DNA of 64,000 nt, taken from Lysobacterales bacterium. Lineage in GTDB: Bacteria > Pseudomonadota > Gammaproteobacteria > Xanthomonadales > SZUA-5. The notes under the pieces were generated by a model. The model saw only the letters and a list, made by a program, of their open reading frames with translations, made no database searches and was not told the origin of the DNA. The stretch is from contig JALHMG010000025.1 in NCBI GenBank assembly GCA_022844135.1, positions 1 to 64,000 on the forward strand. Reading direction: 5' to 3'. Below are positions 5,206 to 33,561 of this stretch, one piece after another (positions within the stretch are counted from its first letter, which is position 1; every line of letters starts with the position of its first letter). The translations under genes were made by a program, and so were the position numbers.

Positions 5206-6252
5206 TCAGCGCTTGCGCCGCGTCACATCGCGCATCGCGCGGCTCATTTCGGCGGCGTAGGCTTTGCGCGCCTGACGGGCGAGCACGGTTTCGCCCGCGC
5301 GCGCGACTTCCGCAGAGAGCTTCTGGTAACTCTGGAATCGTGCGTTATCGAGTTCGCCAGCGTCGAGCGCTTTGCGCACGGCGCAATCCGGTTCGCGCTC
5401 GTGCTGGCAGTCGCGGAACCGACACGCAGCGGCGAGTGCCGCTATGTCGTCGAAACTGTCGGCGACGTCTTCATCGCCAGTGAGTTTGATCTCGCGCAAA
5501 CCTGGGGTGTCGATCAAACACGCGCCGCCGGGCAATGGCAGCAAGGCGCGCGACACCGTGGTGTGGCGGCCTCGGCCATCGGCTTCACGTACCGACCCTG
5601 TCGCTTGCGATGCAGCGCCGAGCAAGGTGTTAGTCAGCGTCGATTTGCCGGCACCCGAAGAACCCACCAACACAGCGGTCTCGCCAGGCAACAGTTGTGC
5701 GGCGAGTGCGGCGCAACTGTCGGCCGATTTGGCGTTCACCAGATGCAGCGTCACGCCGGGCGCGATAGCGGCGACTTCGTCGCGCAATGCGGCGGCGGCG
5801 AGTTCTTTATCGGCCTTGGTGAGCACCAGCGTCGGACGCACGCCGCTGCCGCTGACCAGTGTCAGATAGCGCTCAATGCGACGCACGTTGAAATCGCGAT
5901 CGAGGCCGGTGACGATCAGTACATGGTCGATGTTGGCGGCCAGCGCCTGCCGGGCTTGGGTTTCCCCAGCAGCGCCGCGCACCAGCGTCGAAAAGCGCGG
6001 CAGGATGCGCTCGATGATGAGCTCGCAGCCGCGCTCCGCGACCAGGCACCAATCGCCGACGCACGGCCGCTCGCTGGCGTCGCCGACATGATGACGAAGC
6101 TTGGGCAACGCTTTCGCGGCGCGCGTGTTTTTGCCGTCGTGCACCACATAGCCGGAGCGGTGTTGCTCGACGATGCGCATGAGCGCGCCTTGCGCATCGC
6201 TGGGCAGCGGTGTGCGCTGGGCAACGTAACCGATTCGCGCCAGCTCGTTCAT
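5206..6252 (-). CDS. rsgA: Ribosome small-subunit-dependent GTPase A
   Basis: RsgA is a circularly permuted GTPase that acts late in 30S subunit maturation. The motifs appear in permuted order: G4 TKAD (about residues 145-148), G1 GSSGAGKST (197-205), G3 DTPG (248-251). The zinc-binding C-terminal motif follows as C277, C282, H284 and C290 (CRFRDCQHEREPDC). The N-terminal OB-fold region (about 25-95) includes GDWCLV. Length (348 residues) is normal and the C-terminus is basic (VTRRKR). It starts at ATG 6252, which overlaps the stop of the upstream membrane protein gene by 4 bp, so the two are probably translationally coupled. Confidence 0.95.
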   Translation of the reverse strand: MNELARIGYVAQRTPLPSDAQGALMRIVEQHRSGYVVHDGKNTRAAKALPKLRHHVGDASERPCVGDWCLVAERGCELIIERILPRFSTLVRGAAGETQARQALAANIDHVLIVTGLDRDFNVRRIERYLTLVSGSGVRPTLVLTKADKELAAAALRDEVAAIAPGVTLHLVNAKSADSCAALAAQLLPGETAVLVGSSGAGKSTLTNTLLGAASQATGSVREADGRGRHTTVSRALLPLPGGACLIDTPGLREIKLTGDEDVADSFDDIAALAAACRFRDCQHEREPDCAVRKALDAGELDNARFQSYQKLSAEVARAGETVLARQARKAYAAEMSRAMRDVTRRKR

Positions 6253-6962
6253 CGCTGGCGCTGCGGCATCCGGCGCGCAATCTGGCGCGACAGCGAGAAG
6301 CGCCCGCTGACGTCGGCATAGAACTTGAGCGCTATCAACAAGTACACCACGGCACTCTGACCCAATGCGATGAGCAGGTAACCGCCGAACACCAAGGCGA
6401 CATGGAGGATGACGACGCGATCGTAGGCGGCGAACATATATGCCATGCGCGGCACATCGCTCGGGGCGCTGCGACGAAAACGCAGCACGTCGATGACACC
6501 GAACGCGACGATCAAGGCGATGGCGATACCGCCCCCGAGCGTAGCGAACTCGCTCGCCCAGCCATCGAACATCAGCGCGACAAACGTCAGATGGGCGGCG
6601 CAGAACATCCCGTAATGCAGCACGAAGATCGCAGGCGCGAAAAAGTGCAGGCAGCCGGCGGCGGCCTGCGCCTGCGCCTGCTTCTGCGACTCATCGGCGC
6701 CGCTCCGTTCGAGCGCACGGCGCAGATCGTCGCCGATCAGCGTGCCTTTGAGATTGAGCATCTTGGCGACATGAAATGCGCCGTTGAACAGGTTCTCCAA
6801 CCAGAAGAACCCGAACACCGCTGCGGGCGGCCAATCGAAGACGATCAGGCCCACGAGCAGCACAGCGGCGCTAAGGCCAGCCTCCCACCATGTGCGTTGC
6901 TGCGGCGATAGCGCCGCCAGGCGCTCGGCCAGCTCCACGCGGGAGAGTTGCGGACTCAGCAT
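6249..6962 (-). CDS. DUF6498-like multi-pass membrane protein
   Basis: This integral membrane protein of about 237 residues has several hydrophobic helices: LSAAVLLVGLIVF, FAPAIFVLHYGMFCAAHLTFVALMF, GGIAIALIVAFGVIDVL, and VVILHVALVFGGYLLIALGQSAVVYLLIALK. The segment AVFGFFWLENLFNGAFHVAKML is typical of the DUF6498 family, whose function is unknown. I chose ATG 6962, which has a GGTGGG stretch upstream; an in-frame ATG at 6980 is an alternative. Its stop overlaps the rsgA start by 4 bp. Confidence 0.7.
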   Translation of the reverse strand: MLSPQLSRVELAERLAALSPQQRTWWEAGLSAAVLLVGLIVFDWPPAAVFGFFWLENLFNGAFHVAKMLNLKGTLIGDDLRRALERSGADESQKQAQAQAAAGCLHFFAPAIFVLHYGMFCAAHLTFVALMFDGWASEFATLGGGIAIALIVAFGVIDVLRFRRSAPSDVPRMAYMFAAYDRVVILHVALVFGGYLLIALGQSAVVYLLIALKFYADVSGRFSLSRQIARRMPQRQR

Positions 6963-7128
6963 TGCGAGCCCACCGTCCATCCGGCGTCGCTGTTCGTCGG
7001 CGATGCCAAGGTTTTGCCATCGCTGCGATAGCGGGGAACCAGAGACTTAGCTGCGGACGGCCGGTTCACCGCACAGCCGCCGGCTCGCGTCCGCGGCATT
7101 GACGAGCTGCCAGTCGCGGTTTTTGGAT

Positions 7129-9387
7129 TCACGTCGGATCTTTCGTTTCGGCGCTCTTCAATCGCCGCTCGAACCACGCCACGATCGCATTGAACACATG
7201 CTTGCGCGTCGGCGTGCCGGCGAGACCATGTTTGCCTCCCGGATAGGTCATCAGGTCGAACGCGGTGCCGCGATTCTGCAAATCGGCCATCAGCATCGTC
7301 GAGTGGGTGAACAGCACATTGTCGTCGGCCATGCCGTGGATCAGAAACAGCGGCGAGCGCAGGCCCGCAGTGTGGGTCAGCACGCTGGCGGCCTGGTAGG
7401 CATCGGCATGCTGCGCCGGGTGGTCCATATAGCGCTCGGTATAGTGCGTGTCGTAAAGCTTCCAGTCGCTGACCGGCGCCACCGATACGCCCGCAGCGAT
7501 CTCATCGGAGTGCTTGGCGAGCATCATCAGCGTCATGTAGCCGCCATAGCTCCAGCCGAAGACACCGATGCGTTTGGCATCGACGAAGTCCTGACCTGCG
7601 AGCCAGCGCACACCCACCATTTGATCGTCGACTTCGACACTGCCCATGCGGCGAAAGAGCGGCGACTCGAAGGCCACGCCGCGGCGCGCGCTACCGCGGT
7701 TGTCGAGCGAAAACACCACAAATCCGCGTTGTGCGAGCACCTGATCGAACAGGCCCCAGCGCTCGTCCCAGCGGCGTTGCACGTACTGCACATGCGGGCC
7801 ACCGTAAACGCGCACGACCACCGGATACTTCTTGGACGGGTCGAAGTCGAGCGGTTTGATCAGCCGATAGTGCAAGGTCTGGCCATCCTCCGCTTCGAGC
7901 GTTCCGAACTCCGGCTGCCGGTGCGCTTGCTTGAACGGATGATACGGATGGCCTTCCTTCAACTCGTTGGCGAACAGCGTCGCCAGTGTTTTGCCTTCGG
8001 CATCGTACAGACGCACTTGCGGCGGCAGGTTCGGGGTGGAAAACGCCGCGACGAACACCCGCGCGTCGCGGCTGAAGGTGGCATCGTACCAACCATCGAC
8101 CGCAGTCAGACGACGCACAGAGCCGGGATCGGCGGTATCGAGAGAGGTCACGAATACGTGCGCGTCTCGTACCTCGCCAGCGTTGGCCGAGAAGAACACG
8201 CGACGGCGCCTGGTATCGAGGGCGAGCACCTTGTCGACGACCCACGGGCCGCGGGTCAGCGGCCGGATCAACGCGCCATCCATGCTGCGCAGTTCCAGAT
8301 GCGCATAGCCGTCGCGCTCGCTGGACCAAATGAAGCCTTTGCCATCCGGCAGAACGTTGAGATCGTCGTGCAGGTTGACCCAGGTGTCGCTGGTCTCGCT
8401 GAGCAGCACGCTGGTGCTGCCATCGCTGGCTTGCGCCTTCAACAAATCCAGGGTGCGCTGATCGCGACTCTGGCGTTGCACCAGCAGCGTGTCTTTGTCT
8501 GCCCAATCGACGCGCGCGAGGTAGAAATCGCTGTTCGTGCCAAGATCGACTTTGACCGGTTCATCGCCGGCCAAGGGAGCAACATACAACTCCACCAGCG
8601 CATTGGCTTTGCCGGCCGCCGGATAGCGTTGCTCAATGACTTCCGTGCGGTCGGCGTAAATCTCAAAGCGCCGCTCGACAGCGACGGGCGCCTCATCGAC
8701 GCGCGCGTAGGCGATCGCCGAATCGTCCGGCGCCCACCAATAGCCTGTGAGTCGACTCATCTCTTCCTGGGCGACGAACTCGGCCATTCCAAAGCTCACG
8801 GTTGCAGTGGCTTCCGGGCTCACGCGCCGCGCATCGCCGCCGGCGACCGGCACCACGAACAACGCGCGATCGCGAACAAAGCTGACGTAGCCGCTTTTGG
8901 GCGAGAACTTCGGATCGGTCGCGAAGCCGTCGCTGGCGCGCGTCAACTCGCGCACAGCGGTGTCGGCGGGCGCCTTCAGGTCGTAGACGTATAGCGAGCC
9001 TGCCAGCGGGAACAGCAGCTTCTGGCCATCGTCGGAAAAGTGGTAATCGACGATGCCGCTGATGCCGGCGATGCGCAGCCGCTCGCGGCGCGCTTTTTCC
9101 TCATCGCTCAACACCTCTTCAACGCCGCCAGTGATGGTCTTGGCGTCGACCAGCAGCCGCGTCTGACCACTCGGGACATGGTACTCCCACAAATCGAGCG
9201 CGTTCTGATCGTCTTCTTTGGCGCGCAGGAAGGTTACGCGCTGCCCGTCGGGCGACACTTTGAGAGAACGCGGGGGCGTGCCGGACAAGGTGGGTTCCTC
9301 ATACAAACGATCGATGGTCAGGGTGGGCACTTGGGCAGTAAGCAGCATCGGCGACAACAGCAATAGGGCGAGCAGAGTGCGCAGCAC
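7129..9387 (-). CDS. S9 family peptidase, dipeptidyl peptidase IV type
   Basis: This is a secreted or periplasmic serine exopeptidase releasing N-terminal dipeptides (typically Xaa-Pro). The N-terminal part is an eight-bladed beta-propeller (DPPIV_N) containing the substrate-anchoring double Glu (FVAQEEMSRLTGYWW). The C-terminal alpha/beta-hydrolase carries the nucleophile GWSYGG (Ser at about residue 613), the acid in HGMADDNV and the catalytic His in GGKHGL. I prefer GTG 9387 as the start because it places a signal peptide (LRTLLALLLLSPMLLTAQ) at the N-terminus. An in-frame ATG at 9462 would add a basic, non-signal leader and run into the start region of the divergent lipoprotein gene. With the GTG start the length is about 752 residues, normal for bacterial DPP4. 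Confidence 0.9.
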   Translation of the reverse strand: MLRTLLALLLLSPMLLTAQVPTLTIDRLYEEPTLSGTPPRSLKVSPDGQRVTFLRAKEDDQNALDLWEYHVPSGQTRLLVDAKTITGGVEEVLSDEEKARRERLRIAGISGIVDYHFSDDGQKLLFPLAGSLYVYDLKAPADTAVRELTRASDGFATDPKFSPKSGYVSFVRDRALFVVPVAGGDARRVSPEATATVSFGMAEFVAQEEMSRLTGYWWAPDDSAIAYARVDEAPVAVERRFEIYADRTEVIEQRYPAAGKANALVELYVAPLAGDEPVKVDLGTNSDFYLARVDWADKDTLLVQRQSRDQRTLDLLKAQASDGSTSVLLSETSDTWVNLHDDLNVLPDGKGFIWSSERDGYAHLELRSMDGALIRPLTRGPWVVDKVLALDTRRRRVFFSANAGEVRDAHVFVTSLDTADPGSVRRLTAVDGWYDATFSRDARVFVAAFSTPNLPPQVRLYDAEGKTLATLFANELKEGHPYHPFKQAHRQPEFGTLEAEDGQTLHYRLIKPLDFDPSKKYPVVVRVYGGPHVQYVQRRWDERWGLFDQVLAQRGFVVFSLDNRGSARRGVAFESPLFRRMGSVEVDDQMVGVRWLAGQDFVDAKRIGVFGWSYGGYMTLMMLAKHSDEIAAGVSVAPVSDWKLYDTHYTERYMDHPAQHADAYQAASVLTHTAGLRSPLFLIHGMADDNVLFTHSTMLMADLQNRGTAFDLMTYPGGKHGLAGTPTRKHVFNAIVAWFERRLKSAETKDPT

Positions 9388-9465
9388 GGGATCGATCCCA
9401 GGCAATGGCAAGAGCCGCGATTCTATCGGTGTACACTGGCGCCGTCGTTGCCTGGAGATCAATCG

Positions 9466-9660
9466 ATGCGAGTTTCGATCATGCTGTGCCTGCTTCTGCT
9501 CGCTGCCTGCAGTAGCGAGGCGCCACCGCCGGCCGAGCCCGCGCCGCGTACGCCAACCGTGTTCGACGATCAGTTGCAGGCGATGGAGAAGGCCAAGGCC
9601 GTGGAGGACATGGACAAGAAGCGCCTGGAGGAGATGGACAAGCAGGTGGATGGCGAGTAG
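9466..9660 (+). CDS. Small lipoprotein with charged helical tail
   Basis: This 64-residue protein has a lipoprotein signal peptide: MRVSIMLCLLLLAAC with lipobox L-A-A-C at residues 12-15. A Pro/Ala-rich linker follows, then a highly charged helix-forming tail (LQAMEKAKAVEDMDKKRLEEMDKQ). ATG 9466 is preceded by a GGAG ribosome-binding site about 9 nt upstream. It is divergent from the DPP4 gene, with TACACT at 9432-9437 as a weak -10 candidate. Function unknown; similar small lipoproteins are common in Lysobacterales. Confidence 0.7.
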   Translation: MRVSIMLCLLLLAACSSEAPPPAEPAPRTPTVFDDQLQAMEKAKAVEDMDKKRLEEMDKQVDGE

Positions 9661-9781
9661 TTGCCGGAGCCGGAGGATTCAAGATCAGAGGCTGCACACA
9701 TTCGCCGTGTGACTTTCGTCTCCCGCACTTTGGCCCTCGCTGCAACCAGCTCGCCATTGGGCAATCAAATAGAGCCGCTAA

Positions 9782-11041
9782 TCAGCGCGCCCGAAGCGAA
9801 TCCTTGGCCTGCAACCACCAATACGTTGCCTGCGCGCCCAGGTAGCCGAACGGACGATGCGTCGATGGCAGCCCAAACGGTGCATAGCGCCGATAGCTGT
9901 CGTCGCCAGAAGCAATCGCTGCGGCGATCGCTTCTCCCGCGGCGGTAGTCGTGGCAACGCCGTGGCCGCCGAAGGCCTGCGCGAACCATAGGCCGGCTGC
10001 GAGCCGACCGATCTGCGGCATTTCGTGGCGCGCGTAGCTCATCAAGCCGCTCCACGCGAAGTCGACGCGGATCTCCGCGAGTTGCGGATAAACGCGCAGC
10101 AGATCGCGCTTGAGCAGTCGCGCCACGGCCCCAGGTGCGCGGTCGAGGACCGAGATGCGTCCGCCCCACAAGATGCGCGTGTCCGGCAGCGCGCGGTAAT
10201 AGTCGAAGGCAAAGCGCGTGTCGTAAACGGCAGCAGGTGTGGCGATGCAGTCCTGTAAGCGCGCGCCTAACGGCTCGGTTGCGATGACGTAGGTGGCGAT
10301 CGGCAACAGCGCCCGGGCAAGCTGCGGAACGAGCCGGCCGAGATAACCGCCGCCGCAGACGACGACGTGCTCGGCGTTGATGCTGTGTGCGCCGACGTGC
10401 ACGCGCCAGGCGCTACCGTTCGCTGCGATCCCCGTTGCGCGCGCGCCCTCGGCCATGCGCACACCGAGCGTCGTCGCCGCGCGCGCCAGGCCTAGCGCCA
10501 GGTTCAGCGGATGGACGTGATAGGCATCGGGCTCGAACAGCGCCCCGCTGTAGCGCTCGGTGCGCAGTTGTGCGCGCAACTCATCGCGCGAGACGTTGGG
10601 CCATTGCACGCCATAACGCTCGGCCAGCAGGCGTTGGCGCGCCTGCAATACGCGCGGATCGTCGAACCAGTTGGCCCAGAGTACGCCGCCGTCGATGGGA
10701 TCGCAGGCAATTGCGTATGTGTCGATGCGCTCGCGAATTGTCCGCATCGCGCGTCGCGTGGCCTCGTACAACCAGCGCGCATCGTCGCTGCCAACGCGTT
10801 CGAGCAGCGACGCTTCGCCGAGCGAGTAACCTGCGAACACAAAACCGCCGTTGCGCCCGGAGGCGCCATGGCCGATGGTCTGCGCCTCCAGCAGCAGCAC
10901 ACCCGTCTCTCCGCGCTCGGCGAGTCCCAGCGCGGTGGCGAGACCCGCGTAGCCCCCGCCAATGACCACTACGCGCGCGCGTTGCGGCAGCTCAGAGCCT
11001 GCGAACGATTCGCGGCGGGTACTGGCGTAGTAGGTAGTCAT
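9782..11041 (-). CDS. FAD-dependent amine oxidoreductase (DAO family, PuuB-like)
   Basis: This 419-residue flavoprotein has an N-terminal dinucleotide-binding motif, VVVIGGGYAGLATALGLAERG (GxGxxG within about residues 24-44). It is followed by LLEAQTIGHGASGRNGGFVFAG, a pattern characteristic of gamma-glutamylputrescine and related amine oxidases. The C-terminal flavin motif is WFAQAFGGHGVATTTAAGEAIA. It probably oxidises a secondary amine or amino-acid derivative to an imine; the exact substrate cannot be read from sequence, and no other polyamine-pathway genes adjoin. It is the last gene of a minus-strand run starting at 13512, 29 nt behind the DUF4286 gene. Confidence 0.8.
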   Translation of the reverse strand: MTTYYASTRRESFAGSELPQRARVVVIGGGYAGLATALGLAERGETGVLLLEAQTIGHGASGRNGGFVFAGYSLGEASLLERVGSDDARWLYEATRRAMRTIRERIDTYAIACDPIDGGVLWANWFDDPRVLQARQRLLAERYGVQWPNVSRDELRAQLRTERYSGALFEPDAYHVHPLNLALGLARAATTLGVRMAEGARATGIAANGSAWRVHVGAHSINAEHVVVCGGGYLGRLVPQLARALLPIATYVIATEPLGARLQDCIATPAAVYDTRFAFDYYRALPDTRILWGGRISVLDRAPGAVARLLKRDLLRVYPQLAEIRVDFAWSGLMSYARHEMPQIGRLAAGLWFAQAFGGHGVATTTAAGEAIAAAIASGDDSYRRYAPFGLPSTHRPFGYLGAQATYWWLQAKDSLRAR

Positions 11042-22432: not shown

Positions 22433-24094
22433 ATGCTAGGCATCGACCTTGGCACCACCAACTCACTGGCAGCGATTTTTGTCGACGGCCAGACACAGCT
22501 GATTCCTAACGCGCTTGGGCATGTCATGACCCCGTCGGCGGTGAGCGTCGAGCCTGCCGGCACGGTGCTCGTAGGCCTCGCCGCGCGCGAGCGGCATGCC
22601 ACCGCCCCGCAAGACACTGCGCTGGCGTTCAAGCGCTTCATGGGCACCGACCACATCGTCAAATTGCGCGGCCAGAAGTTTCGCGCCGAAGAGTTGTCGG
22701 CGCTGGTGCTGCGTTCGCTCAAGGCCGATGCCGAGGCGCACCTCGGGCACGCCATCGACGAGGCGGTGATCACGGTGCCGGCTTATTTCAATCAATTGCA
22801 GCGTAAGGCCACGCAGACGGCGGCCACATTGGCCGGATTGAGGGTCGCGCGGCTGCTCAATGAGCCGACGGCCGCTGGTCTTGCCTATGGTCTGCAAGAG
22901 CGCGCCGATCACACCACCTTCCTGGTGTTCGATCTGGGCGGCGGTACCTTCGATGTGTCGGTGCTCGAATACTTCGACGGCGTGGTGCAGGTGCGAGCCA
23001 GCGCTGGCGATACGCGGCTGGGCGGCGAGGATTGGGTGCGGGCGCTGCTCGATGGCGCCATGGCCGCGCTGAACTTGAGCGCATCGCAAAGGGAACAGCT
23101 GCGCGGCAATGGCCTGGCGCTGCGCGCGGCGGAGCAAGCGAAGCGCGACCTGAGCGAGCGCGCGCAGACCACGCTGCAGCTGCCCGGCTTTGCGGCGCAG
23201 CCGCTCAGCCGGGACGCCTTCGAGAGCGCATCGAGCGAGCTGATGCTGCGTTTGCGCCGGCCCATCGAACGCGCGCTTGGCGATGCGCGGCTGAACTCTG
23301 GTGAGCTCGGTGAGGTGGTACTCGTGGGCGGCGCAACGCGCATGCCGATGATTCGCCATGCGGTGGCGCGCCTGTTCGGCAAGTTGCCGCTGCGCACCAT
23401 CAATCCCGATGAGACCATCGCCCGCGGCGCGGCGATCCAGGCGGCGCTCCTGGCCCGCGATGCCGCGCTAGAGGAGGTGGTGCTGACCGATGTGATGCCC
23501 TATTCGCTGGGCCTGGGCATCGTCGACGATCGTTTCTCGCCCATTATCGAACGTAACATGCCGGTGCCGGTATCGCGCATCGGGCGCTATCACACGGTTC
23601 GCGACTACCAGACCAAGCTCGATCTGGACATTTGCCAGGGCGAATCGCCGATCGCGAGCGAGAACCTGCAGTTGCAGCGGGTCAGCGTCAACGTGCCGCC
23701 ATTGCCCAAAGGCGAGGCGATGGTCGATGTGCGTTTCTCCTACGATGCCAATGGTTTGCTGGTGGTGGACATCGCCGATGTGCACACTGGGGAAATCACT
23801 AACGTTGTTATCCAGCAGCGCGAGCACGAACTCGTCGGCGAGGCACTGGCAGAGGCGCTGAAGGCGCTCGATCGCATCAAGATCCATCCGCGCGAGCACC
23901 AGCAAAACGCCGTGCTGCTGGAACGCTGCAAGCGCCTGTATGAAGATCGTCTCGGTGCCGAGCGCATGCAAATCCAGGAGGCGCTGGTCGCCTTTCAAAA
24001 CGCGCTCGATGGTCAGGACCCAGAAGTGATCGCACGCGTCCGCGGACAAGTGCAGAGCTTTCTCGATGAGATCGACCGAGGCTTCGTGTTGTGA
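22433..24094 (+). CDS. hscC: Hsp70 family chaperone HscC
   Basis: This 553-residue Hsp70 has the complete actin-like ATPase domain (GIDLGTTNS at the N-terminus, VPAYFNQLQRKAT, LLNEPTAAGLAYG, FDLGGGTFDVS, VLVGGATRMP) and a shortened substrate-binding domain. Overall length and the immediate linkage to a J-like protein match HscC rather than DnaK. Its C-terminus lacks the DnaK lid/EEVD-like tail. It overlaps the next gene in a GTGA junction. HscC is implicated in modulating sigma-70 or stress responses in E. coli; here the role is inferred only. Confidence 0.9.
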   Translation: MLGIDLGTTNSLAAIFVDGQTQLIPNALGHVMTPSAVSVEPAGTVLVGLAARERHATAPQDTALAFKRFMGTDHIVKLRGQKFRAEELSALVLRSLKADAEAHLGHAIDEAVITVPAYFNQLQRKATQTAATLAGLRVARLLNEPTAAGLAYGLQERADHTTFLVFDLGGGTFDVSVLEYFDGVVQVRASAGDTRLGGEDWVRALLDGAMAALNLSASQREQLRGNGLALRAAEQAKRDLSERAQTTLQLPGFAAQPLSRDAFESASSELMLRLRRPIERALGDARLNSGELGEVVLVGGATRMPMIRHAVARLFGKLPLRTINPDETIARGAAIQAALLARDAALEEVVLTDVMPYSLGLGIVDDRFSPIIERNMPVPVSRIGRYHTVRDYQTKLDLDICQGESPIASENLQLQRVSVNVPPLPKGEAMVDVRFSYDANGLLVVDIADVHTGEITNVVIQQREHELVGEALAEALKALDRIKIHPREHQQNAVLLERCKRLYEDRLGAERMQIQEALVAFQNALDGQDPEVIARVRGQVQSFLDEIDRGFVL

Positions 24095-25824
24095 GCGATT
24101 GGCCGTGGGTTGTCCTCGGCATTGAGCCAGCGTCAGACGCGCTGGCGATCAAACGCGCTTACGCGAAGAAGCTCAAAGTCACCCGGCCCGACGATGATCC
24201 CGACGGCTATCAGCACTTGCGCCACGCGTATGAAGTGGCGCTCGATTGGGCGCAACGAGTGGCAGCCGAGCAGGCGCTGGCAGCACACACTGAGCCAATG
24301 GGAGAGACCGTCGGCGACGTGCCGGCAACGAGCACCGAGCGTGTGGCAGCCATGGCGCCGATCGAGGCGGCGGAGACCGCCGCCGACGCATCACCGATCG
24401 CAGCGCCCAGCGACACTGACGGCAGCGAACAACCGCGCTCAGCGCCGGACGCTCGCGCTGCCACAACGCAGGCGCCAGTCCACGCGGATACGGACGAATT
24501 GCCCCACCTGGTCGCGCGGATTCGGCGCACGCTTTCGGATGTGGATATCACTGCGCCGAGCGACTTGCCGGCGTGGTGGAAACGCCTCGGACGCGACTTT
24601 GCGCTGGTGCCACTCGCGCATCGGAATGTGCTGTCCAGGCAAATGGCACAGTTCGTTGCAGAGCGACCGGGTTTTCCGGACTGGTTGGTTGAACGGATTG
24701 CCGATCTCTTCGAATGGGAGTCCGACTTTCGTCGAGGCAGCGAGATTCAGGACACGTTGGGCACCCGACTTGCCGCGATGCGGCGAGCCCGCGGCGAGTT
24801 GGTCGAGCGCCAATGGCGCCTGCTGTCGGTGTTCGACGCGCTGGCGCGGCCTGGCTCGCGGGTCGTCGGCGCGGGACTCATGGCGATGTTTGCACCCCGG
24901 TTGATCGAGCATTACGACGAGTTGCGTGCTTCTGGGGCGCTTGGCCGATTACGCGATGGTTTGCGCTTCGAATTTGAAGGACTGGCACGCCAGCAGTGGT
25001 TCCTCCGATTGCTGCTCTTCAAGGTGATCGTGCTGCTGCCGTTTGTTTGGACAGGAATAACGAGTGATGTTTGGAACTGGCCGCCGGTACTGGCTTGGCT
25101 GGGAGTTGTGGCTTCGGGGCAAATCTACCTGTGCTTCGATGCGGTGTATCGGCAATGGAAACCCTTGCATGGGGCCCGCAACCTGCGCGTGTCGATGGCC
25201 GCAGGCCTGGGGCTCGGTGCGCTGTGGCTTGGGACGGTCGGCTCAGCGCCCGTGCAAGCCCATGCGTGTGCATTTGCGGCACTGTTCCTGGCGCACAACG
25301 CCGGCCGCTGGCGTTCCATCCATGTGGCCTTTTGGCTCGCTCCGAGTATCGCGTTCTGGAGTCTTGGGCTGCCCGCACCCAGTTGGCTGACCGGCGCCAT
25401 GGCGTTGAGTGTTTTGTTGAGCTTGACGTTGCTCGATCGGATGCCTGAGCGGGTGTTAGCGGCGTTTCGTGTCAACCTCAGCGAGGTGCCTTACGGCTGG
25501 GCCGGCTGGATTGCGCTGGTGTTTTTGTTGCGTGCCGCAGGTCCGGCATTGACGATCGCAACGGCACTGGTCATGCCCCTCGTAGTTTCGGTGCACGCAC
25601 GCAGTTTCGGCCGCTGGTTCGCGCTCAACAACGTCGCTACGGCGACGGCGCTGACGGTGATGTTGGCCACGCCCGAAACGGTTCTTGCTGCGTGGCTCGC
25701 CGCACTGGTTGTGATGTGTCTGGCCACCGTGCTTTGGGCGCGCCTGCTAGAGCGTCGTGCTGTCAAGATCATCCAACGTAACGGATTCACCGCGCACTGG
25801 CCACCGCGCGCATACGATTCATAG
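24091..25824 (+). CDS. J-domain-like membrane protein, presumed HscC partner
   Basis: This 577-residue protein begins with a J-domain-like segment (WPWVVLGIEPASDALAIKRAYAKKLKVTRPDDDPDGYQHLRHAYEVAL). The universal HPD tripeptide is replaced by RPD, so classical DnaK stimulation is doubtful, although J-like partners of HscC commonly deviate here. A long Ala/Thr-rich linker and a helical middle domain follow. The C-terminal 250 residues hold about seven to eight hydrophobic helices (LLLFKVIVLLPFVW, VLAWLGVVASGQIYL, AAGLGLGALWLGTVG, and more). It starts with GTG 24091, overlapping the hscC stop. It probably recruits HscC to the membrane. Confidence 0.8.
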   Translation: MSDWPWVVLGIEPASDALAIKRAYAKKLKVTRPDDDPDGYQHLRHAYEVALDWAQRVAAEQALAAHTEPMGETVGDVPATSTERVAAMAPIEAAETAADASPIAAPSDTDGSEQPRSAPDARAATTQAPVHADTDELPHLVARIRRTLSDVDITAPSDLPAWWKRLGRDFALVPLAHRNVLSRQMAQFVAERPGFPDWLVERIADLFEWESDFRRGSEIQDTLGTRLAAMRRARGELVERQWRLLSVFDALARPGSRVVGAGLMAMFAPRLIEHYDELRASGALGRLRDGLRFEFEGLARQQWFLRLLLFKVIVLLPFVWTGITSDVWNWPPVLAWLGVVASGQIYLCFDAVYRQWKPLHGARNLRVSMAAGLGLGALWLGTVGSAPVQAHACAFAALFLAHNAGRWRSIHVAFWLAPSIAFWSLGLPAPSWLTGAMALSVLLSLTLLDRMPERVLAAFRVNLSEVPYGWAGWIALVFLLRAAGPALTIATALVMPLVVSVHARSFGRWFALNNVATATALTVMLATPETVLAAWLAALVVMCLATVLWARLLERRAVKIIQRNGFTAHWPPRAYDS

Positions 25825-25880
25825 CTCCGCCAGCCCGCTTTGGGCATGCTTCACAGCGTCTCTCAAAGGAGGACTGTTCA

Positions 25881-26561
25881 ATGCCTATCGAACCTCGTTA
25901 TTTGCTGCTCGCGCTGCTGCTGGCGCTGCCCTTCGCCGTAACTGCTGGCGTAAAAGAGGAGAAGCGCGCGCAAGCGGCGGTCGCGGTGCTCCGCGAGGTG
26001 CAATCGGTGCCGGATATCGAGATTCCGGAATCGTTGCTGTCCAAGGCTTATGCGATCGCGGTGATTCCCGATGTCGTCAAGGTCGGTCTCGTGGTCGGCG
26101 GGCGTCGCGGCAAAGGCTTGATCTCGGTGCGCCAGATGGACGGGACCTGGTCGAACCCGGCGTATATCTCGATCACCGGCGGCAGTTTTGGTTTCCAGGC
26201 CGGCGTGCAATCGGCGGACATCATTCTTGTGTTCCGTACGCAGCGTGGCGTCGATAACCTCGTCTCCGGCAAGTTCACACTCGGCGCCGATGCGTCCGTG
26301 GCGGCAGGGCCCGTGGGTCGCCAGGCTTCGGCGGCAACCGACATCGAGCTGAAAGCGGAGATTCTGGCTTACGCGCGCACCCGCGGATTGTTCGCCGGCA
26401 TCGCGCTCGATGGCTCGGCGCTGGCGATCGATTACGATGCGATCGAACGCGTCTATGGTCGCGGCACCAGCCCACGCGCACTGTTCGAGGGTCGCGTCAA
26501 AGGCGCACCAACGTTTATCGTCGACTTCCGGGACCAGTTGGAAGAGCAGACGTCGCGCTGA
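25881..26561 (+). CDS. SYLF (YSC84/DUF500) lipid-binding domain protein
   Basis: This 226-residue exported protein has a signal peptide (RYLLLALLLALPFAVTAG) followed by a SYLF domain. The characteristic elements are ESLLSKAYAIAVIPDVVKVGLVVGGRRGKGLISVR, SITGGSFGFQAGVQSADIILVFRT, KFTLGADASVAAGPVGR and GLFAGIALDGSAL. SYLF domains bind phosphoinositides in eukaryotes; bacterial homologues are periplasmic proteins of uncertain function. A good RBS (AAAGGAGG) lies about 9 nt upstream of ATG 25881. A REP-like pair follows the stop. Confidence 0.88.
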   Translation: MPIEPRYLLLALLLALPFAVTAGVKEEKRAQAAVAVLREVQSVPDIEIPESLLSKAYAIAVIPDVVKVGLVVGGRRGKGLISVRQMDGTWSNPAYISITGGSFGFQAGVQSADIILVFRTQRGVDNLVSGKFTLGADASVAAGPVGRQASAATDIELKAEILAYARTRGLFAGIALDGSALAIDYDAIERVYGRGTSPRALFEGRVKGAPTFIVDFRDQLEEQTSR

Positions 26562-26639: not shown

Positions 26640-26674
26640 GGAACAAGAACCAGGAACTAAGAACCAAGAACCAT
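26640..26674. repeat. Five 7-bp-periodic repeats (GAACCAA-type) running into the tyrS start codon
   Basis: Consecutive heptamers GGAACAA, GAACCAG, GAACTAA, GAACCAA, GAACCAT occupy 26640-26674. The last unit contains the first two bases of the tyrS ATG. The array therefore fills the position where a ribosome-binding site would be expected; no good Shine-Dalgarno sequence is visible. This is one of four 7-bp-period arrays in the window. Confidence 0.7.
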
Positions 26675-27947
26675 GCATCACCTCATAGACGATCTCCAAT
26701 GGCGCGGGCTGCTCGCCGACTGCACCGATATCAAAGCCTTGCGCGAGCGCATGGAGCAGGGGCCGATTACGCTTTACTGCGGCTTCGATCCGACCGGCGA
26801 TTCGCTGCACGTGGGCCATCTGATGGGGCAGTTGATGCTGCGCCGCTTCCAGCGCGCGGGCCACACGCCGATCGCGCTTGCGGGCGGCGCGACGGGCATG
26901 ATTGGCGATCCGTCAGGCAAATCGGCCGAGCGCAATCTGTTGTCGCGCGAGCAATTGCAGCACAACGTCGCTTGCATCAAGGCACAGCTGGCGCGGCTGC
27001 TCGATTTCGAGGCGCCGTTCAATCCTGCGCAACTGGTCGACAACTACGACTGGACGGCGCCGATCACGGTGCTCGAGTTCCTGCGCGATGTCGGCAAACA
27101 TTTTTCGCTGACGGCGATGTTGGCGAAGGATTCGGTGCGCTCGCGGATGGAGGCCGAGAGCGGCATCAGCTACACCGAATTCAGCTACCAGCTTCTTCAG
27201 AGCTACGACTTCTATCACCTGCGCGCCGCACATCACTGCGAGCTGCAGATCGGCGGGTCGGATCAGTGGGGCAATATCACGGCGGGAGTGGATTTCACGC
27301 GCCGCAAACTCGGCGCCACGGTGTACGGCTGGACCTTCCCGCTGATCACCAAGGCCGATGGCAGCAAGTTCGGCAAGACCGAATCGGGCGCCGTGTGGCT
27401 GGATCCTGCCAAGACCAGCCCGTATCGGTTCTATCAGTTCTTTTTGAACACCGAAGACGCCAAGATCGGCGAGTACCTGCGCAAATTCACCTTTTTACCG
27501 CGCGAAGAAATCGAAGCGCTCGAAGCGCAGCAGTTGGCCAATCCAGGCGCACGCGAGGCGCAGCGCGCGTTGGCGCGCGAGGTAACGACGCTGGTGCACG
27601 GCGCCGCGGCCGTGGAGGCCGCGCAGCGCGCCAGTTCGATCTTGTTCGGCGCAGAACTGGGCGATGTCGATGCCGCGACGTTCCTCGACGTGGTCGGCGA
27701 AGTGCCCACCTATTCGCTCGCACGCAGCGCGCTCGATGCCGGCGCTTCGTTGATCGATCTGCTGATCGAGGCCAAACTCGCACCATCCAAATCTCAGGCG
27801 CGCAAAGACATCGAGAGCGGCGGCGTGTACCTCAACAACCAACGCGCCGACGCGACACGCGCGGTCAGCACGAGCGACCTGCTGTTCGCACGCTATCTGT
27901 TGCTGCGCAAAGGCAAAAAGAGCTACGCGGTGCTCGACGTGCTGTAA
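26673..27947 (+). CDS. tyrS: Tyrosine--tRNA ligase
   Basis: TyrRS is a class I synthetase charging tRNA-Tyr. The ATP-binding HIGH-type motif appears as DSLHVGHL and the KMSKS-type loop as KFGKTE. YCGFDPTGDSLHVGHLM and QIGGSDQWGNI form the tyrosine and ATP pocket as in the E. coli-type enzyme. A C-terminal S4 RNA-binding domain (KSQARKDIESGGVYLNNQRA) is present. The length of 424 residues is normal. The start codon lies inside a 7-bp-period repeat with no clear RBS, which may affect translation. Confidence 0.96.
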   Translation: MHHLIDDLQWRGLLADCTDIKALRERMEQGPITLYCGFDPTGDSLHVGHLMGQLMLRRFQRAGHTPIALAGGATGMIGDPSGKSAERNLLSREQLQHNVACIKAQLARLLDFEAPFNPAQLVDNYDWTAPITVLEFLRDVGKHFSLTAMLAKDSVRSRMEAESGISYTEFSYQLLQSYDFYHLRAAHHCELQIGGSDQWGNITAGVDFTRRKLGATVYGWTFPLITKADGSKFGKTESGAVWLDPAKTSPYRFYQFFLNTEDAKIGEYLRKFTFLPREEIEALEAQQLANPGAREAQRALAREVTTLVHGAAAVEAAQRASSILFGAELGDVDAATFLDVVGEVPTYSLARSALDAGASLIDLLIEAKLAPSKSQARKDIESGGVYLNNQRADATRAVSTSDLLFARYLLLRKGKKSYAVLDVL

Positions 27948-28001
27948 GGCCGCCCTTGGCGGATACTGCCAAGTCACTACTGGTCGCCAGGCTGAAATCT
28001 C

Positions 28002-29339
28002 GTGAGCTACAAAGCACCCGAAAACCTGATCGAAGTGCTCCAGCGAATCAATTTCGAGGAGGCGCTCGATCCAGACGACCCACGGTATGTCGACACCGAA
28101 AAGGCGCGAGGTAGTCAGCAGGTTTTTGCGAGTCTGGCAAAGACGCTTGGCTGGGATCCCAGGACCAACGCTACCTTCCCGCCAGCCTCCAAACACGTAC
28201 TGTTTTTTGGCCATGTGGGCAGTGGCAAGACCACAGAGTTGCGCCGCTACGGCAAAGCACTGAACGACTCGAACCGTTTCCTGGTGATCCAAGTCGACTT
28301 GCTTACGTTACTCGACCGCAACAACTTGAGCTACAGCGAAGTGCTACTGGCAATGGCAGATCGCCTCGTTTTCGAGATCAAGCGGCAATCCATTGAATTG
28401 GACAGAGATGCAATCAAACCTATCGTCGACTGGTTTGCTGCGTCGACGCGGCTTACAGAGAGCTACCGCGAGAGCGAAGGTGCGGTGCAGGTGGGCAGTG
28501 AAGCCAGCTTCGGCATCCCGTTCGTAGCAAAGCTCCTGGGTATCGTGACCGCTGGCGTTAAGGTCGGTTCTACAATAAAAGACGAATGGCGTAGTGAGGC
28601 TAGAAAACGATTCACAGCACTTGCGGCTGCATTCAACGGTCTGGTTCGGCAAACTGAACAGAAGATTCGCAACTCAGATGTGACCCGTCGGGTACTCTTT
28701 GTTGCCGACGGCACGGACAAACTTAGCGGTGAAGATACGACGCGCTTCTTTGTTGAAGACGTGGAGCAGCTTCTGGCAATCGAGGCACTCGCGATCTACA
28801 CGGCGCCGCTGCAATTGAAATTCAGTGGACGACTTACCGGGAAACTTGATGCGTCGCTCATGCTTCCCATGATAAAGCTGCGGGAGCGTGACGACAGCCC
28901 GTGTCTTGAAGGCCGTAAAGCGCTGCGAGAAATGGTCTTGAAGCGTGCTTCAGCAAAGCTGTTCGCAAATCCCACTCAGGTCGAAATTGATCAGTTGGTC
29001 GATCTGAGCGGCGGACACCCGCGTGAGCTACTCAGGTTGTTGAAGCAATGCTGCTTGATTGCCGAAGATGTCATCAACGGGACGATCGTAGGACTCGCCG
29101 CCGACAAGCTGGCCAGCGAGTATCGATACTGGTTGAAGGAAGCCGACTATGAACGCTTGGTTGCAATCGACAGCGCGAAGACCGCACTCGGTAACGAAGA
29201 TATTGATCAAGAGCTTATCCATCGGTTGGCGCTGATGCAGTACAACGAAGGCTCTTGGCGCGCAAGCCATCCGGTGATTCGCCGTCTCGACGGCTATGTT
29301 GCCGCGAGGGAGCGAAGCGCGAATCGAATCGATGGTTGA
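28002..29339 (+). CDS. STAND-like P-loop NTPase of a putative conflict module
   Basis: This 445-residue protein has a Walker A at about residues 70-78 (GHVGSGKTT), a Walker B-like strand at 231-240 (VLFVADGTDK) and a later GGHPRELLRLLK motif at 337-346. The latter resembles the GxP-containing winged-helix entry of STAND/archaeal-type AAA ATPases. The rest is mostly helical, with no transmembrane segment. I cannot assign a characterised family. It starts with GTG 28002. The next gene, encoding a TPR protein with an apparently degenerate NTPase-like N-terminus, begins within about 10 nt of its stop. A NTPase/TPR pair suggests a sensing module, possibly anti-phage. Codon usage is less GC-biased than the neighbours. 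Confidence 0.65.
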   Translation: MSYKAPENLIEVLQRINFEEALDPDDPRYVDTEKARGSQQVFASLAKTLGWDPRTNATFPPASKHVLFFGHVGSGKTTELRRYGKALNDSNRFLVIQVDLLTLLDRNNLSYSEVLLAMADRLVFEIKRQSIELDRDAIKPIVDWFAASTRLTESYRESEGAVQVGSEASFGIPFVAKLLGIVTAGVKVGSTIKDEWRSEARKRFTALAAAFNGLVRQTEQKIRNSDVTRRVLFVADGTDKLSGEDTTRFFVEDVEQLLAIEALAIYTAPLQLKFSGRLTGKLDASLMLPMIKLRERDDSPCLEGRKALREMVLKRASAKLFANPTQVEIDQLVDLSGGHPRELLRLLKQCCLIAEDVINGTIVGLAADKLASEYRYWLKEADYERLVAIDSAKTALGNEDIDQELIHRLALMQYNEGSWRASHPVIRRLDGYVAARERSANRIDG

Positions 29340-29347
29340 ACGCAAAC

Positions 29348-30877
29348 GTGGATGAAATTGCCAACCGGGCAATTGCCACACTTCCGACCGAATGGCATGC
29401 CGAGTTCCGCCGACTTGCCCGTGCGTTGGTTCATGGAAATGACTCGCAGCGATTGCTGATCGACGCTAGGGATCAGCGATATCGAGACGACTTGGCTGCG
29501 GCTTTGAGTCGAGTTTGTTTGGACGCTGGTCTTCGCGAAGCGCACCTGTCCATCGATTCGTCAGTGCCGGATGTCGCCGACTTGGAAGCCAAGATGCTTG
29601 AAGTTGCGGATCGGGCGGATGTTGTCCATCTGGATTTCGCGCCAGGTTGGCTGACTGCAAGTCGATGGCAAGCACTCAACATTCGTCGCGAACGGCTTTC
29701 GGAAGCGCGCGCTCGCTGGTTGCATTGGCTTAGCGCGGATGAGTTGGAGATGGCCGCGAGACATGCGCAAGATTGGTGGGCTTGGCGTGATGGCGTATTC
29801 GCGTTCGTCGCGCCGACAGAAGTCGATTTGGGCATTCCAGCAGCGTTCGATTTTAGCGAACGTGCGCCGTCGCTTTCTTCGGCTTCAACGCCGATAGAAC
29901 GAATCGTCCGGATCGATGAGTTGGCGGCTTGGCTGTCTGCGAATGCATCTGCTGACAAGCGGCTGCAGGCGAACGTCGTTGACGAGCTGATACTCTTACT
30001 TTTTGCCGACTATCGCTTCGCCGAAGCTGTTCCCTACCTGAAGCGTGCGGTCACCCTTTATAGATCGCTCGGAGAGCGCGACAGGGCGGCGATGTGCAAG
30101 GTTGCTTACGGCGATGTCCTGCGAACGCTCGGTGAGACAGATCGCGCGTTACGGATCTACGAGACTCAGGCGCGGCGCTTGTCGGAACTAAAGGCGACGA
30201 TACTGTGGGCACAGACTCGTTTCCGGGTTGTTTCTATCTGGCTGCAGAAGCGGCGACTGGGAAAAGCTCGCGACGAACTAGCGAACCGCTTGCTGCCACT
30301 CGCGGAGAGACTTGGCGACACCGGAATGATGGCCGTAGGACTCGGCCTACTGGCCGATCTAGAGCGATTTTCCGGGCGAACCCGCGAAGCCCTTGAGATC
30401 GAGCAGCGAGTCTTATCCATAGCTTTGGCGTCGGGTCGGCAAAGGATGGCGGGAATTGCGTTGGCAAAAATCGGACACATGTTGGCGACAGAAGGTCGCT
30501 TCGATGAGGCTCGCGCGCAGTTCAACAGAGCGTTGACTACTTTCCAGGGCGAAGGCTCAACGGCGGACATCGCGGCTGTCCTCGGTAGATTGGCAGCGGT
30601 CGATGCGGCGAATGGAAATTTCGATTCAGCGCTTTCAATTCATCGGGAGCAGGTGCTGCCTCTTCTCCAGAAAGATTACGACCTAACCAGATTGATCATG
30701 ACGCACAGGACGATCGGGCGCCTGCTACAAAACCAACATAAGCCCAGTGACGCACTGACTGAATTCCATTTCGCAGGTGAGTTGGCGCGGCGCGCTGGCA
30801 ACAAAACGTTGATGGAGGCGGTTGAACAGGATATCGCCGGGCTCCGATCTCAATCACAACCCGAGATCGTCGCGTGA
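29348..30877 (+). CDS. TPR protein with putative inactive-STAND N-terminal domain
   Basis: This protein of about 509 residues has two halves. The N-terminal part (about residues 1-160) carries RLLIDARDQRYRDDLAAAL, ADVVHLDFAPGWLTASRWQALNIRRERL, WLHWLSADELEMAARHAQDWWAWRDGVFAF. This pattern recurs ahead of TPR repeats in predicted conflict proteins and looks like a P-loop domain without catalytic motifs. The C-terminal part has six or more tetratricopeptide repeats, e.g. AMCKVAYGDVLRTLGETDRALRIYE, GIALAKIGHMLATEGRFDEARAQF, AVLGRLAAVDAANGNFDSAL. The start is uncertain: GTG 29348 is used, TTG 29336 overlaps the upstream TGA, and the frame is open to ATG 29255. Its stop overlaps the ElaA gene in a GTGA junction. 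Confidence 0.65.
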   Translation: MDEIANRAIATLPTEWHAEFRRLARALVHGNDSQRLLIDARDQRYRDDLAAALSRVCLDAGLREAHLSIDSSVPDVADLEAKMLEVADRADVVHLDFAPGWLTASRWQALNIRRERLSEARARWLHWLSADELEMAARHAQDWWAWRDGVFAFVAPTEVDLGIPAAFDFSERAPSLSSASTPIERIVRIDELAAWLSANASADKRLQANVVDELILLLFADYRFAEAVPYLKRAVTLYRSLGERDRAAMCKVAYGDVLRTLGETDRALRIYETQARRLSELKATILWAQTRFRVVSIWLQKRRLGKARDELANRLLPLAERLGDTGMMAVGLGLLADLERFSGRTREALEIEQRVLSIALASGRQRMAGIALAKIGHMLATEGRFDEARAQFNRALTTFQGEGSTADIAAVLGRLAAVDAANGNFDSALSIHREQVLPLLQKDYDLTRLIMTHRTIGRLLQNQHKPSDALTEFHFAGELARRAGNKTLMEAVEQDIAGLRSQSQPEIVA

Positions 30878-31326
30878 AACCAAGGGCTCCGCTTTTCTTT
30901 GCGCTAAACGCCTTCGCCGATCTGCCGATCGAGCGCTGGTATGCGATCAGCCAGGCGCGCACGGCGGTGTTTATCGTCGAGCAGAATTGTCCGTATCAGG
31001 ATCTCGATGGCAAAGATGCGAAGTGCCTGCATCTGGCTGGCTGGGACGGCGAGACGCTCGCTGCGTACTTGCGCATCGTGCCACCGGGCGTGTCGTACGA
31101 GGAAGCCTCATTGGGCCGCGTGCTGACCACTAGCGCGTATCGGCGCGGCGGCTTCGGGCGCCAACTCCTGGCCGAAGGCATCGCTCGCTGCACGGCGTTG
31201 CACGCCGGTCCAATCCGCATCGGTGCGCAGCGTTATCTGGAAGCGTTCTACGCGAGTTTCGGTTTTCGCACGGTGTCTCAGCCTTACGACGAGGACGGCA
31301 TCGAGCATGTGCTGATGCTGCGCTGA
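30874..31326 (+). CDS. elaA: GNAT acetyltransferase, ElaA family
   Basis: This 150-residue N-acetyltransferase has the ElaA hallmark [17 protein letters not shown] near residues 31-47 and a GNAT acetyl-CoA loop ([24 protein letters not shown]). The C-terminal [23 protein letters not shown] follows. The acceptor is unknown. It starts with GTG 30874, overlapping the stop of the TPR gene, so it is probably co-transcribed with the putative STAND/TPR pair, though it is a common housekeeping gene and the link may be incidental. Confidence 0.85.
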
Positions 31327-32406: not shown

Positions 32407-33561
32407 ATGCGCATGCGCAGTTCGTTCCCTGGTCTTTTGCTGCTCCTCGGTTCCGCATCGGCCTTCGCGGCATTGAACCAACCGCCGCTGCTGGTTCCCG
32501 GCGGCGTGATCGAGGGCGATAGCGGCTCGCGCTCCTTGTCGTTTGGCATTCGCTGGATGGCGCTGCCCGGTGCGCCCGGTCCGTACCAGGTGCAATGGCG
32601 CACGGTCGATGGCGCGGCACTTGCCGGTAGCGACTATGTGGCGGCCAGTGGAACCGTCTCTTTGTCGCCGCAGCAGTCGTTCGCGCCGCTGTCTGTGATG
32701 GTGCTCGGCGACAGCGAAATCGAACCGAACGAAGACATCCGTCTGGAGTACGACGTCATCGGGTCAGCTTTCAGCGGCAGCGGCTCGCTATGGATCAGCG
32801 ACGATGACGGCGCACAGCCGCCGCCGCCACCGCCCATCGTGCTCATTCAGGCGCTCGATGTTGGTGCCGTCGAGCCGTCGAGCGGCGAAACCAACGTTGG
32901 CGTGATGCTGTTGCGCCTGGGGCCGACCGCAGCCGCGGTCGATGTCGACTTTGCCGTCGACCCGATCAGCACGGCAACGCATGGCAGCGACTGGACCGGC
33001 GCTACGGTCGGGCGACTGAGCTTTGCGCCTGGGCAAACGGTGCGGCGCATCGATTTGGCGGTTCGGGCCGACAGCGAGATCGAAGGCGTCGAGACTATTC
33101 GCTTCTCGTTGAGCGCCGGGCCGGGCGTGGTGCTGCCACGCCAGCATGCGGTTGTCAGCCTGCGCGACGCAGGCGCCGCTACTGGCGCGGCCGGCGTCAT
33201 CGCCTGCCGTCGCGCAGTGATGGAGCACGACGGCCCGGCGCGCTTTGTGGTTCGCCGGCACGGCGATAGCAGCATGGCACTCAGTGTGAACTACGCCACT
33301 GCCGATGGCAGCGCCCGCGCGGGTGCGGACTACACGGCGAGCGCCGGAACTCTGTCCTGGGCTGCGGGCGATGCCACGCCGCGGGTGATCGACGTCGCCT
33401 TGGCCACCGATAGTCAGGTCGAACCGCCCGAGTCATTCGCGATGGTGCTCTCCAATCCGCAACCGGCATCGCCTTTGGGCCCCGCCAGTGCAGCGGTGGT
33501 CATTCTCGACGCCCACGATCAGATTCTGGTCGACGACTTCGCACCGGGTTGCGACGATTGA
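32407..33561 (+). CDS. Secreted Calx-beta domain protein
   Basis: This 384-residue exported protein has a signal peptide (SSFPGLLLLLGSASAFAA) and three Calx-beta-like Greek-key domains. They are recognisable by WRTVDGAALAGSDYVAASGTVSL / DSEIEPNEDIRLEY, HGSDWTGATVGRLSFAPGQ / DSEIEGVETIRFSLS, and NYATADGSARAGADYTASAGTLSW / DSQVEPPESFAMVLSNP. A Pro-rich hinge separates domains 1 and 2. Calx-beta domains bind Ca2+ through the conserved acidic loops (DSEIEP..E). The C-terminus (ILVDDFAPGCDD) resembles short tails on other exported Lysobacterales proteins. ATG 32407 is preceded by an AGGAG site. Confidence 0.88.
   Translation: MRMRSSFPGLLLLLGSASAFAALNQPPLLVPGGVIEGDSGSRSLSFGIRWMALPGAPGPYQVQWRTVDGAALAGSDYVAASGTVSLSPQQSFAPLSVMVLGDSEIEPNEDIRLEYDVIGSAFSGSGSLWISDDDGAQPPPPPPIVLIQALDVGAVEPSSGETNVGVMLLRLGPTAAAVDVDFAVDPISTATHGSDWTGATVGRLSFAPGQTVRRIDLAVRADSEIEGVETIRFSLSAGPGVVLPRQHAVVSLRDAGAATGAAGVIACRRAVMEHDGPARFVVRRHGDSSMALSVNYATADGSARAGADYTASAGTLSWAAGDATPRVIDVALATDSQVEPPESFAMVLSNPQPASPLGPASAAVVILDAHDQILVDDFAPGCDD

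Follow-up and report, generated by a model that had tools for sequence, protein, structure and literature searches.

What is encoded by the two genes that lie between tyrS and an acetyltransferase gene in a Lysobacterales bacterium (contig JALHMG010000025.1, positions 1 to 64,000; the window is this whole 64,000-nucleotide stretch, and the coordinates of the pair are on its forward strand)? These genes, designated A and B, had been described in a first-pass annotation as a putative STAND/TPR conflict module. A is predicted to be a STAND-type NTPase and B is a TPR protein, and the two form a near-obligate pair that recurs in several bacterial phyla and was acquired at this site. We propose that they constitute a split NLR-like receptor, with A as the switch and B as the sensor, including a role in biological conflict. 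We give this proposal an even chance; the pairing of the genes and the fold of A are much surer than the receptor reading.

28002..29339, + strand, gene A: stand-alone STAND/AAA+ NTPase, GTG start, TGA stop, 445 aa
29336..30877, + strand, gene B: alpha/beta N-terminal domain and TPR array, 513 aa from the TTG at 29336
27948..30873, inserted segment, missing at the equivalent tyrS–GNAT position in a congener

Both open reading frames (ORFs) are present, and the motifs quoted for them are found in the sequence where they had been placed. The first in-frame start of B is the TTG at 29336, which overlaps the A stop; the spacing of about 10 nt reported earlier is obtained with the alternative GTG start at 29348.

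Pairing and distribution of A and B

When approximately 85,000 species genomes were scanned with an alignment of A's nearest relatives, 82 relatives were identified, 80 of them as named loci, which span the Pseudomonadota, Cyanobacteriota, Nitrospirota, Acidobacteriota, Spirochaetota, Bacteroidota and others. In at least 75 of the 80 loci A is followed, in the same orientation, by a gene with the B N-terminal domain, the recognisable part of which begins within approximately 250 nt of the A stop. Of the other five, L128 and L129 have a more divergent TPR partner, L100 has a truncated A, L116 is a fusion, and L130 is interrupted by unknown bases. Because the A–B order recurs at so many homologous loci, it is far beyond chance. 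Among 274 genomes of the class, full-length A is present in seven and the B domain in the same seven, with every match beside an A gene (hypergeometric 5e-14, for genomes that are not independent and a B profile built from A-adjacent genes). The distances among A proteins and among B N-terminal domains are correlated (r=0.86), with none of 2000 permutations giving a value as high. The adjacency, the co-occurrence and this correlation support a dedicated, near-obligate pair; a two-gene module had been suggested in the first-pass annotation.

There is no third conserved gene beside A and B in 36 well-flanked loci; candidates for a third module gene were rejected, as the downstream genes are unrelated (for example Rrf2, rhodanese, SCP2 and MOFRL kinase). 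TPR-only homology returns unrelated TPR proteins and was excluded as a criterion of family membership. Single-sequence degenerate-pattern scans with A found no relatives in genomes or viral contigs, the diverse A alignment was unsuitable for pattern searching, and it was the nearest-relative alignment that worked for genomes.

The A tree does not track taxonomy closely. Window A forms a long branch within a clade (21 rows, support 100/97) that is mostly betaproteobacterial and also includes cyanobacterial and actinobacterial bins, and bin contamination may add to the mismatch. Some copies are on cyanobacterial plasmids, with chromosomal ones predominating among the loci found. Loci L095 and L096 encode identical A proteins and identical B N-terminal domains in bins assigned to two different phyla, for which transfer and mis-binning are both possible.

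Insertion at the tyrS–GNAT locus

The module is flanked by tyrS (26673-27947) and an ElaA-like GNAT gene (30874-31326). In a congener with a tyrS that is 91-92% identical, the GNAT gene starts at about the tyrS stop, and A and B are absent. The GNAT gene overlaps the B stop in the window and was missed by the first-pass annotation; it was considered as an operon member and rejected because the congener has tyrS and GNAT adjoining without A and B, and we therefore regard it as a host-locus gene outside the module.

The GC content of A (0.546) and B (0.571) is lower than that of the whole window (0.628), and GC at third codon positions (GC3) is 0.617 in A and 0.593 in B compared with 0.805 in tyrS and 0.794 in clpP. 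These are the two lowest GC3 values among 19 measured genes, with the 17 others at 0.71-0.82, and the measurements bear out the earlier remark that codon usage is less GC-rich here than in tyrS and clpP.

Of 101 genomes searched for A, almost all from the order of the source bacterium, only its own genome and, with a distant relative (29%), the congener with the empty site gave a match. The two genes are not a housekeeping pair conserved at one locus. The empty site, the patchy distribution and the low GC agree, and support the acquisition of the pair over a housekeeping origin.

The source genome carries two more, very divergent copies of the pair (22% A identity) on contigs C3 and C68, and A and B thus belong to a family with several members per genome. 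The C3 copy (L050, G000:C3:100000-116000) has A at 7469-8755 and B at 6136-7488, both on the minus strand, and the congener has a relative of it (A 60% and B 33% identical) in a different gene context. This copy starts 59 bp behind an ORF of about 1030 aa that reads, by eye, like an error-prone DnaE2-type polymerase. The third copy (L046, G000:C68:6000-22000; 6512-10394, plus strand) has a B of about 860 aa with many TPRs.

Protein A

28209..28235, + strand, Walker A, GHVGSGKTT (residues 70-78): G70, H71, G73, G75, K76 and T78 invariant in 64 homologues
28695..28718, + strand, Walker B, LFVADGTD (residues 232-239): D236, G237 and D239 nearly invariant in the 64 homologues; strand 230-236 in the model
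29010..29030, + strand, GGHPREL (residues 337-343): G337, G338, P340 and R341 nearly invariant in the same alignment
29268..29273, + strand, HP dipeptide at residues 423-424, within the winged-helix-like part at the C-terminus: P424 invariant and H423 almost so

The 64-homologue alignment also shows conservation of R36-G37. The longer segment SGGHPREL is nearly invariant and lies after the NTPase core, where the GxP motif of STAND proteins is expected; GGHPREL may be the equivalent of that motif. Judging by its position, the HP dipeptide is a possible counterpart of the MHD of NLRs or the WHD histidine of STAND proteins. The AlphaFold model of A, made with the 64 homologues (predicted local distance difference test score, pLDDT, 88.9), has an AAA+ core, after which come a helical and a winged-helix-like part. 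Foldseek ranks archaeal Cdc6/Orc1, archaeal STAND ATPases and TnsC highest, and its matches include a plant resistosome and the defence ring RdrA. A second aligner gives Z scores of 15.4 for archaeal STAND protein 2qen (5.2 A, 297 aligned), 14.8 for TnsC, 13.1 for CED-4 (5.2 A, 300 aligned) and 12.0 for the plant NLR resistosome 6j5t (5.1 A, 278 aligned). The motifs and the predicted fold support the assignment of A as a P-loop NTPase of the STAND type, in keeping with the first-pass annotation.

Matches of window A to the Pfam STAND families (NACHT, NB-ARC, nSTAND1-6, KAP, ATPase_2) are all below the curated cut-offs, and E-values in the scan of the 64 A members go no lower than 3.7e-8 (ATPase_2) and 8.7e-7 (NACHT). 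No family in Pfam, NCBIfam or PADLOC covers window A or B above cut-off, which fits the earlier statement that no named system could be recognised; PADLOC gives partial P-loop or TPR matches and no full-length system match, and the three scans reveal no sensor or effector domain in window A. Matches to the antiphage protein DS41_1 and to Sll1717 were rejected, as they cover only about 35-50 residues around GGHPREL.

Protein B

29336..29809, + strand, N-terminal domain (residues ~1-158): strands 39-43, 68-73, 96-101, 127-132 and 153-156 alternating with helices in the model
29678..29806, + strand, N-terminal domain signature N115..R118...W131...D146.W148.W150-R151...F157
29891..30853, + strand, TPR array (residues ~186-506): Pfam TPR_12, E=8.9e-20, and model

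The AlphaFold model of B (pLDDT 91.1) has a five-strand alpha/beta domain of about 158 residues followed by TPR helices to the C-terminus, and the TPR_12 match agrees with the earlier description of B as a TPR protein. Across 90 sequences the signature of the N-terminal domain is strongly conserved (N 99%, R118 99%, W131 93%, D 99%, WxWR approximately 91-93%); the segment RWQALNIRRERL is at residues ~111-122 and WAWRDGVFAF at 148-157. No Pfam family was found for this domain. A sequence search of the PDB gave weak matches to designed P-loop-fold proteins (E 0.011), which we count as no evidence, and the matches to full-length B in a fold search were taken up by TPR structures, from which we draw no conclusion about the N-terminal domain. 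The TPR part resembles the peptide-sensing TPR proteins Rap and NprR by fold.

In the model, the order of elements in the N-terminal domain fits a minimal P-loop-type fold that has no P-loop, and by the same order R151, immediately ahead of the last strand, would take the place of an AAA+ arginine finger; the latter correspondence is speculative. The domain had been described as NTPase-like without catalytic motifs. With five strands alternating with helices it might be a degenerate NTPase, but profile comparison showed no relation to A and did not support the domain as a recognisable A paralogue.

Evolution of the TPR arrays

Many B genes contain tandem 123- or 126-bp units (41-42 aa) that match by up to 99% and are present in up to 14 copies. 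If repeats are called near-identical when neighbouring units share at least 85% identity across 60 residues or more, they are found in 28 of 53 complete B proteins compared with one of 11 control TPR proteins taken from related genomes (Fisher p 0.009). The repeat units are mosaic within B arrays. The TPR array is the fastest-evolving part of the pair: across 14 close pairs, identity averages 0.87 in A, 0.84 in the B N-terminal domain and 0.75 in the TPR part, and loci L066 and L124 (Sphaerotilus and Leptothrix) are 99%, 92% and 68% identical in these parts. The identical A proteins of L095 and L096 are accompanied by about nine and 13 repeats respectively, a difference that may reflect assembly collapse because both are bins. 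A ratio of nonsynonymous to synonymous substitution rates (dN/dS) of 21 in the L118 array was rejected as proof of positive selection, because only about six codons are variable.

In 66 B proteins scanned, the 25 commonest families are mainly TPR, with GT4 and HEPN not among them. The repeat part of cyanobacterial B proteins can be WD40, and B can carry nSTAND1 together with WD40 repeats; in an Acidobacteria bin (L120) it has NB-ARC plus TPR.

Proposed function and its alternatives

Several loci associate A-type domains with components of conflict systems. In L116 (7046-10290) the A-type NTPase is fused to a PDC-M38A/AriA-like ATPase (a PADLOC candidate defence family, E 9e-124) with a PDC-M38B (DUF3226) gene directly behind it, and this may possibly represent a new defence architecture. 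A Calothrix plasmid (L019, 4929-11206) has two tandem A genes, the second of which is fused to TIR (E 1.5e-33) and followed by a B-type protein with two N-terminal domains in a row. On a Nostoc plasmid (L020, 970-6140) an A-type domain is C-terminal on a vWA-like protein (RefSeq name SAV_2336; recognised as vWA by eye), next to genes for a MoxR-like AAA protein and VMAP-C/VMAP-M1. This is the layout of the ternary conflict systems in PMC7159879, with an A-type STAND where the effector normally sits.

We favour a split receptor because of the STAND fold of A with its Walker motifs, the near-obligate adjacency and congruent distances, the lack of a third gene, the horizontal spread, the fast arrays and the fusions; a STAND switch and a repeat protein are joined here by operon pairing instead of fusion. 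A would be a nucleotide switch (a nucleotide-binding oligomerisation domain core of P-loop NTPase, helical and winged-helix-like parts) with neither sensor nor effector of its own, onto which the alpha/beta domain of B would dock, and the B repeats probably act as the sensor, with the TPR array as the ligand-recognition surface. B would hold nucleotide-bound A off until the array binds a foreign or altered protein, as its evolution suggests. The conserved face of B might then release A or complete its ATP site, perhaps, more speculatively, through an arginine-finger-like action of the W-x-W-R before the last strand; A would oligomerise and signal, as its fold suggests, and the output could come from a separately encoded effector. 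A conflict role such as phage defence is plausible for the pair.

A number of observations weigh against this proposal. Profile comparison finds no relation between the B N-terminal domain and A, and so leaves NTPase homology unsupported. The most immune-like fusions are mostly in distant A relatives. The neighbours in the 36 well-flanked loci are mostly housekeeping genes with few PADLOC matches, several of them generic, so that the co-occurrence in defence islands for which a neighbourhood survey had been suggested is unsupported in these loci; nor is an effector domain seen in A or B, or encoded nearby in most loci. A search of viral contigs with the nearest-relative alignment gave no relatives, and no homologue was found in phage records. 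The window B array consists of divergent repeats (none by Tandem Repeats Finder, best internal identity 0.25) and is old, with no recent expansion, and most arrays have a dN/dS below 1, while the three that reach or exceed 1 do so on few changes. The fusions to TIR and the PDC-M38A-like ATPase, the VMAP system and fast TPR evolution point towards the conflict module tentatively named in the first-pass annotation; the ordinary neighbours and the lack of a visible effector speak against it.

The same ordinary neighbours would suit a non-immune signalling pair that senses a metabolite, peptide or stress signal and controls transcription or an enzyme in the manner of MalT/AfsR-type regulators, with the winged-helix-like part of A contacting DNA. 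The TPR part of B matches AfsR- and MalT-type TPR models, and Rap/NprR by fold, and A resembles the DNA-binding AAA+ proteins ORC/Cdc6 and TnsC. We nonetheless consider this unlikely, as a conserved regulator would not be expected to be so patchily distributed, to spread horizontally or to turn over its arrays so fast, and no regulated neighbour is conserved. The likeness of A to Cdc6/Orc1 and TnsC, its top Foldseek matches, could also indicate an AAA+ machine that acts with a TPR adaptor on DNA in replication, repair or transposition targeting, for which the position of the C3 copy behind the putative DnaE2-like gene might be cited. The fold does not discriminate here, because CED-4 and plant resistosomes score similarly, and with no transposase or repair gene conserved alongside we find this explanation improbable. 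Much the same low standing is given to a selfish or addiction module (a toxin-antitoxin-like or plasmid-stabilising pair) spread horizontally without benefit to the host: the two-gene unit is compact, has no fixed genomic site and in some copies lies on cyanobacterial plasmids, but the proteins are large and multidomain without a toxin-like domain, most copies found are chromosomal, and both genes have been kept together over long times.

The split receptor may also be read more broadly, although we think it rather doubtful in this form, as a phylum-spanning new class of bacterial non-self receptor in which a STAND switch and a hypervariable TPR/WD40 sensor are separate proteins, a new alpha/beta adaptor domain keeps them together and acts on the switch in trans, and expansion and shuffling of repeats diversify the arrays, as happens in fungal allorecognition NLRs.

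Other genes in the window

Window positions 22433-26561 contain an Hsp70-like gene and, after it, a DnaJ-like gene whose DnaJ match is below cut-off (E 0.012), the latter gene being only 39% identical in the congener compared with 88-95% for its neighbours. Downstream of clpP, 32407-33561 encodes a protein with three Calx-beta stretches.

Comparison with known systems

A literature search, which was not exhaustive, found no description of the A/B pair. The nearest described arrangement is nSTAND2 (Kaur et al. 2021, PMC8195603), a mobile bacterial two-gene operon of an active STAND and a partner described as an inactive STAND with variable modules; a hetero-ring is predicted, and the partner carries fused GT4 or HEPN effectors. 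The mobile two-gene operon is a shared feature, and A has intact NTPase motifs, whereas B carries TPR or WD40 repeats and no GT4 or HEPN effector, and its N-terminal domain has no demonstrated STAND relation; the distinction is drawn from the published description and not from sequence comparison, and the pair might still belong to that family. The MoxR-vWA ternary systems (VMAP, iSTAND; Kaur et al. 2020, PMC7159879) are approached by the Nostoc plasmid locus alone, with its A-type domain beside MoxR and VMAP genes, while the window and the other examined loci are without a MoxR, vWA or VMAP component. MalT/AfsR-type proteins likewise employ a STAND ATPase with a TPR sensor, and their TPR models match B; they differ in being one polypeptide with a DNA-binding output, where A and B are two proteins with no dedicated output domain.

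The NLR/AP-ATPase and NACHT receptors (fungal TPR/WD NLRs and bacterial NACHT/Avs) share with the pair a STAND switch, a repeat part that in B is a putative sensor, and fast-evolving, internally conserved repeats, and the predicted fold of A resembles CED-4 and the resistosome. Fungal NLRs combine STAND with internally conserved TPR/WD repeats that show length polymorphism (PMC4986451). In the A/B pair, however, switch and sensor are on two polypeptides, there is no effector domain, and an extra, conserved alpha/beta domain precedes the repeats. If the pair is a receptor, colocalisation screens would miss it because it lies outside defence islands, and how bacterial STAND proteins diversify recognition becomes directly testable, since natural pairs such as L066 and L124 share a near-identical switch and have different arrays. 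It would then be a bacterial analogue of NLRs in which sensor and switch are separate, with hypervariable repeats like those of the fungal allorecognition NLRs.

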